From Lampropedia hyalina DSM 16112 (lineage in GTDB: Bacteria > Pseudomonadota > Gammaproteobacteria > Burkholderiales > Burkholderiaceae_C): a stretch of 64,000 nucleotides of DNA. The notes beneath the pieces are model-generated. The model made no database searches. It worked only from the letters and a program-made list of their open reading frames with translations, and was not told where the DNA came from. This document shows, one piece after another, positions 13,266 through 23,331 of this stretch. The stretch lies in NCBI RefSeq assembly GCF_900129055.1, contig NZ_FQUZ01000010.1, positions 1-64,000 on the forward strand, given 5' to 3'. Position 1 is the stretch's first letter. Each line of letters opens with the position of its first letter. Both the position numbers and the translations under genes were made by a program.

Positions 13266-14393
13266 TCAGTCCACCAGAATCCGCAGCATCCGGCGCAATG
13301 GCTCGGCAGCTCCCCACAGCAGTTGGTCGCCGATGGTGAATGCACCCAGATATTCCGGCCCCATCGCCAGCTTTCGGATGCGCCCAACCGGGATATTCAT
13401 GGTGCCGGTCACGGCCACCGGGGTGAGCTGCTCAATGGTGGCTTCCTTGGTGTTGGGAACGACCTTGGCCCATTCGTTGTCGGCGGCGATCATGCCTTCG
13501 ATCTCATCCAGCGGCACATCCTTCTTGAGCTTGAAGGTCAGTGCCTGGCTGTGGCAGCGCATGGCTCCGACGCGCACACAGAAACCATCGACCGGGATGG
13601 CAGTGGTGCCGAAGCCTTCGCCCTGCCCCAGAATCTTGTTGGTTTCGGCCATGCCTTTCCATTCCTCGCGGCTGACACCATTGCCCAGATCGGAATCGAT
13701 CCAGGGAATCAGCGAGCCACCCAGCGGCACGAGGAAGTTGGCGGTTTCCTGGGCGGACAAGCTGCGTTGCCTGGCGATGACCTGGCGATCGATTTCCAGA
13801 ATCGCGCTTTTCGGGTCGTCCAGCAGGGCCTTGACCTCGGCGTAGAGCGTGCCGTACTGGGTCAGCAGTTCGCGCATGTGCTGCGCACCACCACCAGACG
13901 CTGCCTGATAGGTCTGGGTGCTCATCCATTCGACCAGCCCGGCCTTGTAGAGTGCGCCCACGCCCATCAGCATACAACTGACCGTACAGTTGCCGCCCAC
14001 CCAGGTGTTGCCACCGTGGGCCAAGGCGTTCTGAATGACTGGCAGATTGACGGGGTCGAGCACGATCACGGCATCTTTTTCCATGCGCAGCGACGAAGCG
14101 GCATCGATCCAGTGCCCCTTCCAGCCTGCGGCGCGCAGTTGCGGATAGACCTGCTTGGTGTAGTCGCCACCCTGTGCGGTGATGATGATCTCGCACTGGC
14201 GCAGTGCCTCGATATCGTAGGCATCCTTCAGGACGGTTTCATTCTTCGCATAGGCAGGAGCCTGGCCGCCCGCATTGGAGGTGGAGAAGAATACGGGTTC
14301 GATGACGTCGAAGTCGCCTTCGGCGGCCATGCGGTCGAGCAGCACGGAACCAACCATGCCGCGCCAGCCTACGAGTCCTGTGAGTTTTGTCAT
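13266..14393 (-). CDS. asd: Aspartate-semialdehyde dehydrogenase
   Basis: The enzyme makes aspartate semialdehyde from aspartyl phosphate using NADPH, the branch point to Lys/diaminopimelate, Thr, Ile and Met. The 375-residue protein belongs to the longer proteobacterial type. The NADP loop [13 protein letters not shown] is at about 6-18, and the catalytic Cys lies in [10 protein letters not shown] at about 131-140. An AAGGG Shine-Dalgarno precedes the ATG. Transcription appears to begin about 215 bases upstream near 14608, leaving a long leader with a possible regulatory peptide. Confidence 0.97.
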
Positions 14394-14620
14394 TTGGGAT
14401 ATGCCCTTTTGAAGTGGAGAAAGTTGCGGAATCTGCGAAACTTTTCCTGCCCCGGCTCGTCTGGCCGGTTTTTCAGGGCACGACGATCCGAGAGCAGGTC
14501 AGCTCTTAATCGTCTTGGTGGTGTTGATGGACGCACCCGAGGACCTCCGGCGGCCATCATCGGCCACAGAGCAGGCGGGAAGGAAGGGGGCGTGGATCAA
14601 CATAACGGTTGGCAAGTATA
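14394..14620 (-). promoter_or_regulatory. asd promoter and possible attenuator leader
   Basis: On the minus strand a near-consensus -10 TATACT (14615-14620) starts a leader of roughly 215 bases before asd. The leader contains a short ORF ending in Thr/Ile/Lys codons and two strong hairpins. The first, 14482-14514, pairs GACGAT with ATCGTC and AGAGC with GCTCT and covers the last codons of the short ORF. The second, 14448-14480, pairs TGCC...CCGGC with GCCGG...GGCA. No U-run follows the second hairpin, so a classical terminator is not proven. The -35 is weak. The rest of the gap up to 14834 holds a TAAAAT -10-like box near 14732 for the plus-strand gene. Confidence 0.45.
14499..14603 (-). CDS. 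Putative asd leader peptide ending in Thr/Ile/Lys codons
   Basis: This 34-codon ORF starts with ATG a few bases after the predicted transcription start and ends SINTTKTIKS-stop. Thr, Ile and Lys are end products of the pathway that asd feeds. The codons ACG ATT AAG AGC TGA form the ascending arm of the hairpin at 14482-14514, as the regulatory codons of known attenuator peptides do. The ATG has almost no leader for a Shine-Dalgarno, and the N-terminal half (MLIHAPFLPACSVADD) looks unremarkable. An overlapping reading frame (14390-14557, basic, ending ATGA with asd) competes. Confidence 0.35.
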   Translation of the reverse strand: MLIHAPFLPACSVADDGRRRSSGASINTTKTIKS

Positions 14621-23141: not shown

Positions 23142-23215
23142 CGGAGCGGACGGGACTCGAACCCGCGACCCCCGGCGTGACAGGCCGGTATTCTAACCAA
23201 CTGAACTACCGCTCC
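23142..23215 (-). tRNA. tRNA-Asp (GTC)
   Basis: The 74-base minus-strand sequence starts GGAGCGGTAGTTCAGTTGGT. Its anticodon loop is CCTGTCACG (anticodon GTC), its T-arm is GCGGGTTCGAGTCCCGT, and its 3' acceptor strand is CCGCTCC with discriminator G. CCA is not encoded. It lies 40 bases after tRNA-Glu in the same transcript. Confidence 0.97.
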
Positions 23216-23255
23216 TGGTAGCGACTGAATTTGCCTTGGACAAACCCAGCGTTTT

Positions 23256-23331
23256 TGGCGACCCTACGGGGATTCGAACCCCGGTACCCACCGTGAAAGG
23301 GTGGTGTCCTAGGCCTCTAGACGATAGGGTC
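23256..23331 (-). tRNA. tRNA-Glu (TTC)
   Basis: The 76-base minus-strand sequence starts GACCCTATCGTCTAGAGGCC. Its anticodon loop is CCCTTTCACG (anticodon TTC), its T-arm is CGGGGTTCGAATCCCCG, and the acceptor strand is TAGGGTC with discriminator G and an encoded CCA. Confidence 0.97.

Follow-up and report, generated by a model that had tools for sequence, protein, structure and literature searches.

Comparison of related genomes points to a probable Thr/Ile/Lys attenuator upstream of asd whose sensing frame is a leaderless peptide or the 3′ end of leuB

The leader of asd in the Comamonadaceae and allied bacteria probably works as a ribosome-mediated attenuator responding to the charging of the tRNAs for Thr, Ile and Lys, amino acids that all derive from the Asd product. 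It also seems likely that LeuB, which belongs to a different pathway (leucine synthesis), has been co-opted to sense starvation. At 61 of 143 loci (one being a relic), roughly the final twelve codons of leuB would encode the Thr/Ile/Lys attenuator peptide for asd, each round of LeuB synthesis reading the aspartate-family supply, and at 60 others a leaderless mini-gene would take this part. Confidence in the explanation as a whole is held at this level because the contrary folding results given below are taken into account. Comparison among relatives brings out conserved Thr, Ile and Lys (T/I/K) codons, competing predicted pairings, a predicted linker helix and two forms of the sensing frame.

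The window, the whole 64,000-nucleotide stretch of Lampropedia hyalina DSM 16112 analyzed here (NZ_FQUZ01000010.1, positions 1 to 64,000), carries asd on the minus strand with its ATG at 14393 (Table 1). The first-pass annotation of this DNA had described an asd leader with a short ORF ending SINTTKTIKS-stop, and this was borne out: the frame has its likely start at ATG 14603, 11 nt 3′ of the TATACT box, and its stop TGA at 14501–14499, and translates as MLIHAPFLPACSVADDGRRRSSGASINTTKTIKS (34 aa), with Thr, Thr, Lys, Thr, Ile, Lys as its control codons. The hairpin that it had placed at 14482–14514 is present exactly there (GACGAT..AGAGC/GCTCT..ATCGTC), and the second one, which it had placed at 14448–14480, corresponds to the CCGGC/GCCGG stem at 14468–14452 within that span. 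On the plus strand, hairpin T (14452–14468) is followed by TTTTT and forms a terminator-like site. The Shine-Dalgarno letters of asd are AAAAGGG. A consensus scan found no full sigma-70 promoter at the window leader. The 220-nt leader (14613–14394) folds at −77.1 kcal/mol compared with −65.5 (sd 4.6) for shuffled sequences (z −2.5; 0/200 shuffles as low).

Table 1. Parts of the asd leader in the window, in window positions
Feature	Position	Strand	Basis or remark
asd, aspartate-semialdehyde dehydrogenase, 375 aa	13266..14393	-	ORF; NCBIfam TIGR01745 asd_gamma 590.1 bits, cut-off 402.9
asd leader	about 14608-14394	-	sequence
Putative -10 box TATACT of leader promoter	14615..14620	-	sequence; similar boxes in family
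Leader ORF, 34 codons, nearly leaderless, ends SINTTKTIKS-stop	14499..14603	-	ending kind conserved in relatives
Hairpin 1:2 (P1), GACGAT-TA-AGAGC / GCTCT-CGG-ATCGTC	14482..14514	-	spans last control codons and stop; inner stem covaries over all loci
Element 2 (CTCTCGGATCGTC)	14482..14494	-	partner is element 1 or element 3
Linker GTGCCCT	14475..14481	-	can pair with AGGGCAT over asd Shine-Dalgarno (helix P0)
Element 3 (GACGAGCCGGGG)	14450..14461	-	pairs with element 2 (2:3) or is 3′ side of hairpin T
Hairpin T, CCGGC / GCCGG, without U-run after it	14452..14468	-	T covariation; 0/111 loci with U-run
A/U-rich hairpin P3, AAAGTT / AACTTT, between T and Shine-Dalgarno	14420..14444	-	sequence; by eye in some relatives
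asd Shine-Dalgarno region AAAAGGGCAT, linker's partner	14401..14410	-	sequence

The same arrangement was sought at asd loci from the best 80 named genome contigs of a longer list and from 150 genomes belonging to the same GTDB family as the window, an Asd match being present in 147. A script found the element at 73 of the best 80 named loci, and one of the seven exceptions offers just 40 nt of upstream sequence. A covariance model built from 56 core sequences, with E 0.001 or better taken as a match, recognizes 119 of the 150 family genomes; in 118 of these the match lies upstream of asd, as confirmed in the upstream stretches, and in G021 the sole match is on another contig and not upstream of asd. 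In G035 the element lies about 590 nt from asd. Because the same elements recur to this extent, the features of the window leader are more than chance. The 147 genomes gave 143 upstream stretches (G041, G043, G104 and G107 dropped out, their asd 5′ end being missing or split), of which 121 have the element and 22 lack it; weak model scores among the 121 are those of L106 (22.3 bits), L142 (23.8 bits) and L202 (16.5 bits). Named hosts include Acidovorax, Limnohabitans, Hydrogenophaga, Rhodoferax, Curvibacter, Roseateles, Mitsuaria, Aquabacterium, Lampropedia and Vandammella. Beyond this one GTDB family, to which the element is nearly confined, a search of the class matched 5 of 369 genomes, three of them from the family and two weakly in other families (G494 and G270), and a search of the order matched 5 of 200, all from the family, with the stricter filters applied to searches over 40 genomes meaning that weak matches can be lost. 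Five extra matches within the family (E 8e-5 to 1e-3) gave no copy resembling the asd element before another biosynthetic gene, judged by eye from the frame translations.

The sensing frame takes two forms. In 60 of the 121 loci, including the window, it is a separate leader ORF encoding a leaderless peptide of 28–45 residues, and in 61 it is the 3′ end of leuB, one of these (L106) being a relic that scores weakly and whose LeuB ends in the ordinary way. Typical endings are ITTKTTTIKG for the separate leaders and GDAVVAAITKTITKG for the LeuB tails, and the frame stop falls at the same offset in 106 of the 121 loci. T/I/K account for 79% of the last ten residues in the 60 separate leaders and 70% in the 61 leuB-fused frames, both values being biased upward, as the frame was chosen among the stops inside the element for most T/I/K in the last 12 residues. 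LeuB controls, with no such choice of frame, give 6% (44 proteins from separate-leader genomes with leuB within the fetched stretch), 16% (21 from genomes without the element; highest single value 0.6) and 3% (27 adjoining asd in other families; 27 were used of 28 loci, the best-matching in a 60-genome sample of the order). From its sequence, the leader frame thus appears to have the enrichment in pathway codons that marks ribosome-mediated attenuators.

The T/I/K-rich tail makes the fused LeuB 5–8 residues longer, with a median of 13 residues after the MGDAV motif compared with 5 and 8 in the controls; in L018, for example, the fused LeuB reaches 489 bits against the leuB model, whose end falls at residue 350 of the protein's 362. 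LeuB has no tail where the leader is separate, nor in other families. In the outside sample leuB usually adjoins asd (27 of 28 loci from other families) and has a plain end, so a gain inside the family is the simplest explanation of the tail. The tail could instead serve the LeuB protein, through stability or assembly, and not be a regulatory peptide at all, since at 61 loci, the tailless relic counted in, it is part of the LeuB reading frame. This we regard as scarcely credible, because genomes with a separate leader combine a tailless LeuB with a separate peptide of the same kind of ending, because LeuB in other families has no tail, and because the tail DNA contributes to an RNA hairpin for which covariation is seen within the leuB form itself (1/2000 permutations for the 1:2 hairpin over the LeuB tail codons). 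The window genome has the separate form, and its leuB (24963–23884, minus strand; TIGR00169) lies about 9.5 kb from asd and has a plain end. Records named Hydrogenophaga include both forms, five each, plus one too short to assign; Hydrogenophaga pseudoflava (L029) has the separate form, and a Roseateles strain (L055) exemplifies the leuB form. A tree of 102 Asd proteins, in which the form labels of L103 and L106 were assigned by hand, implies at least 10 changes among forms, although it is poorly resolved and its starred branches force only one per label.

The separate leaders share a distinctive start. A TANNNT box with at least 4 of the 6 TATAAT letters precedes an in-frame ATG or GTG by 6–11 nt in 59 of the 60, compared with 2.75% of shuffled controls; the box is TACAAT in 42, and the gap is 6–9 nt in 55 and 11 nt in the window. 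The nearly leaderless ORF, which the first-pass annotation had listed among its caveats, is therefore the rule in the separate form (59/60). Another of its caveats, a basic ORF overlapping the leader and ending ATGA with asd, holds for the window (14390–14560) but not for the relatives: a frame of at least 40 codons with a start in frame is found in only 8 of the 51 separate-form loci with ATGA at the asd start, window included.

The predicted RNA pairings are mutually exclusive in part. Element 2 pairs with element 1, which contains the codons, or with element 3, and element 3 alternatively closes hairpin T; 1:2, 2:3 and T therefore share elements 2 and 3, and competing pairings of this kind are characteristic of ribosome-mediated attenuators. 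When arms from the same genome were compared with arms from mismatched genomes over all loci, own-genome pairing was favored for 1:2 (z 3.4), 2:3 (z 5.2), T (z 6.0) and, most strongly, the linker helix (z 12.4), with 0 of 2000 permutations as extreme in each case. This test used one locus per genome and 94–101 distinct pairs, identical arm pairs being counted once and shared ancestry being retained; 10 of the 121 loci were omitted as the script pattern did not fit them. By form, all pairings reach 2/2000 or fewer, except 1:2 in the separate form (197/2000, not significant). A cruder run of the linker helix over 175 loci, with some segments misplaced, gave 15.90 for own and 14.97 for mismatched partners (0/2000). 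Examples of linker and partner are GCGCCCTTTC/GAAAGGGCGT (L083), CACCAAACCC/GGGTTTGGTG (L186), TCTTTCAA/TTGAAAGA (L086) and GTGCCCT/AGGGCAT (window), and a compensated change is seen by eye in L127, which has GGTTTGTC/GACAGGCC where most loci have GGTTCGTC/GACGAGCC.

In the 56-sequence alignment, 93.3% of 2:3 cells are paired, falling to 28–54% when the arms are slid, and for T the values are 90.7% and 18–52%. Shuffle controls are divided on 2:3: the covariation score (2/500), the cells changed on both sides (4/500) and the cells paired (0/500) favor it, whereas the pairs changed on both sides (493/500 as high) and the pair types (500/500) do not. The first-pass annotation had stated that an attenuator should be abandoned if relatives lacked the terminal codons or the hairpin pairing, and neither is lacking. 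The T/I/K codons are kept (79% and 70%) and the pairings covary over all loci, the part of its proposal that falls short being 1:2, which is not significant in the separate form alone. Its suggestion of an amino-acid attenuator for asd with Thr, Ile and Lys control codons thus gains support from the comparison, at the level of sequence. The leuB-fused form lay beyond the reach of an annotation made from this one sequence.

How such a switch may work can be outlined as follows. The sensing frame would be the leaderless leader peptide, as in the window, or the C-terminal tail of LeuB, whose gene is commonly directly upstream of asd. When amino acids are plentiful, the leading ribosome would reach the stop and cover the 5′ half of element 2, so that hairpin T forms, and after its departure at the stop hairpin 1:2 would form; with element 2 out of play, the linker would pair with the ribosome-binding region of asd and turn asd off. 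Under a shortage of Thr, Ile or Lys, the ribosome would stall on the control codons and mask element 1, and 2:3 would then pair, breaking hairpin T and holding the linker in a loop, which would free the asd start. We infer both the stalling and the direction of the response; that translation initiation is the controlled step is suggested moderately for the separate form and weakly for the leuB form.

The same logic of control codons and competing hairpins would also serve classical transcription attenuation, as in the trp or thr operons, with T as intrinsic terminator and 2:3 as antiterminator. Such a mechanism calls for a GC-rich hairpin directly followed by a U-run. As the first-pass annotation had pointed out for the window, no U-run follows the second hairpin, and this extends to the family, as 0 of 111 loci show at least five T within the 8 nt that follow hairpin T (the average is 0.56). 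Longer T runs (5–7) occur further downstream in 36 of the 111, and no intrinsic terminator was found on the minus strand in the window. Intrinsic termination in the asd leader is therefore unlikely, and the lack of a terminator makes classical transcription attenuation an improbable description of the switch. Furthermore, the linker helix, which that model does not need, shows the strongest covariation of all. We accordingly give classical attenuation little credence, and prefer a ribosome-mediated switch acting through the linker.

Whether the linker helix would occlude the ribosome-binding site (RBS) was assessed by overlap counts and by folding with ribosome masks at 30 °C in 101 of the 121 loci (53 separate, 48 leuB). 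The helix overlaps the Shine-Dalgarno core by at least 2 nt in 44 of 53 separate-form and 18 of 48 leuB-form loci, and in the leuB form it ends a median of 14 nt before the ATG. In the separate form, a ribosome 9 nt before the stop gives a predicted P(2:3) of 0.66 with the RBS 0.46 unpaired (53 loci), and one at the stop gives 0.07 and 0.32; without a ribosome the values are 0.48 for 2:3, 0.30 for T and 0.36 for the unpaired RBS, so 1:2 is not a clear winner in that state. In the leuB form, P(2:3) is 0.19–0.24 when stalled and 0.00 at the stop, and the RBS is at 0.46–0.48 in all states. Over both forms, the RBS is more open with a ribosome stalled 18 nt before the stop than with one at the stop in 67 of 101 loci (mean +0.056).

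For the window alone, 2:3 is predicted at 0.82–1.00 with the mask ending at 14506–14496 and at 0.00 in the five other states tried, so that the 1:2 and 2:3 states exclude each other. The linker helix is part of the minimum-energy fold of the leader alone and drops to 0.00–0.12 once 30 nt of asd are added; with these 30 nt, T and the linker helix are at 0.00–0.13 and the Shine-Dalgarno is 0.49–0.54 unpaired in all states. Within the family simulation, the window RBS is 0.66 open at the stop and 0.64–0.66 when stalled, and opening of the Shine-Dalgarno on stalling is not seen in thermodynamic folding of the window alone. Occlusion of the RBS fits the separate form on average and fits the leuB form poorly. 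Support is good for the sensing half of the switch. For the output half it is moderate in the separate form taken collectively, and poor in the leuB form and in the window by itself.

These results leave some room, especially in the leuB-fused form, for a stall that acts on transcription via Rho, on mRNA decay, or on reinitiation following the leuB stop. The leuB form keeps the codons and pairings in spite of its low overlap with the Shine-Dalgarno and the distance of the helix from the ATG, and the linker is C-rich by eye; the overlap of the linker helix with the Shine-Dalgarno in most separate-form loci points the other way. On balance we consider such an output rather unlikely, and tentatively retain occlusion of the ribosome-binding site as the preferred output.

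A metabolite riboswitch or a protein-binding leader, in which the short ORF would be incidental, would likewise account for a conserved structured RNA 5′ of a biosynthetic gene. Rfam release 15 gives three gathering matches in the window and none in the asd leader, where the matches below threshold are msiK on the same strand (E 2) and one on the other strand (E 0.64). Moreover, the frame keeps its T/I/K ending even though all that precedes the final dozen codons changes from leader peptide to LeuB. We therefore regard this reading as highly improbable. Elsewhere in the window, Rfam identifies a TPP riboswitch (RF00059, 74.3 bits) at 300–412 and two adjacent tRNA genes at 23142–23331, all on the minus strand.

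Among known systems, the E. coli thrABC attenuator has a leader peptide rich in Thr and Ile codons and alternative hairpins. The asd leader resembles it in these codons, in the alternative hairpins and in belonging to aspartate-family genes, and differs in having asd as its gene, in its added Lys codons, and in the lack of a U-run and of an Rfam gathering score. Leaderless leader peptides are represented by the poly-cysteine short ORFs of mycobacteria and, reportedly, by trpL of S. meliloti. In both, and by prediction here, the leader ORF starts at or near the transcription start, although other amino acids and lineages are concerned, and to our knowledge none of the leaderless leader peptides sits in the C-terminus of an enzyme. 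In translational attenuators of the ermC type, a stalled ribosome frees the ribosome-binding site, and the antibiotic is sensed via nascent-chain stalling. A freed ribosome-binding site would be common to both, whereas sensing here would be by codon starvation.

Methodologically, the closest parallel is ilvB-II of Corynebacterium, a conserved RNA motif that turned out to contain a uORF with pathway codons and that occurs a single time in each genome, ahead of one biosynthetic gene (PMC10272879). A conserved motif and a pathway-codon frame are shared with the asd element; unlike the latter, ilvB-II has a terminator stem with a uridine stretch, and its uORF is a separate short frame (PMC10272879). 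The Rfam asd RNA (RF01732), likewise named for its place at asd and listed for Lactobacillales in an excerpt of PMC2864571, has no match in the leader studied here. Threonine genes regulated by attenuators in other species and T-boxes that sequester the Shine-Dalgarno have been described (PMC1262725, in excerpt), and a 2010 attenuation survey is cited as outlining a mechanism of overlap with the ribosome-binding site (PMC4833913, in excerpt). The excerpt of PMC4833913 makes no mention of asd, and asd, Acidovorax and threonine are absent from the main text of a survey of premature terminators (PMC2965389). Among the matches listed from the open-access literature, no title or abstract opening concerned an asd attenuator in these bacteria or a LeuB tail as leader peptide.

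If the proposed attenuator is true, it adds asd, with sensing of three amino acids, to the genes controlled by ribosome-mediated attenuation, and does so in a family that is large and mostly environmental. The two forms look like a natural experiment, in which only the last dozen codons of the frame would matter, what precedes them being an unrelated short leader in one form and an enzyme of 350 residues in the other. If the C-terminus of an enzyme can be a regulatory peptide, the tails of upstream genes in other operons are worth checking, and unusual enzyme tails in databases may in some cases be explained at the level of RNA and not of protein.

A few loci depart from the common pattern. 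L106, L189, L204 and L206 are possible relics, with a partial motif or a T/K-containing LeuB tail and a weak or absent model match. L048 and L062 (Roseateles and Mitsuaria) have an additional GC-rich hairpin (GCCCGGCC..GCCGGGC) a short distance 5′ of the asd start. Family genomes with a divergent Asd (64–70% identical), among them L207, L208 and L209, still have the element, and one such genome, G014, gives the best model score of all (100.5 bits).
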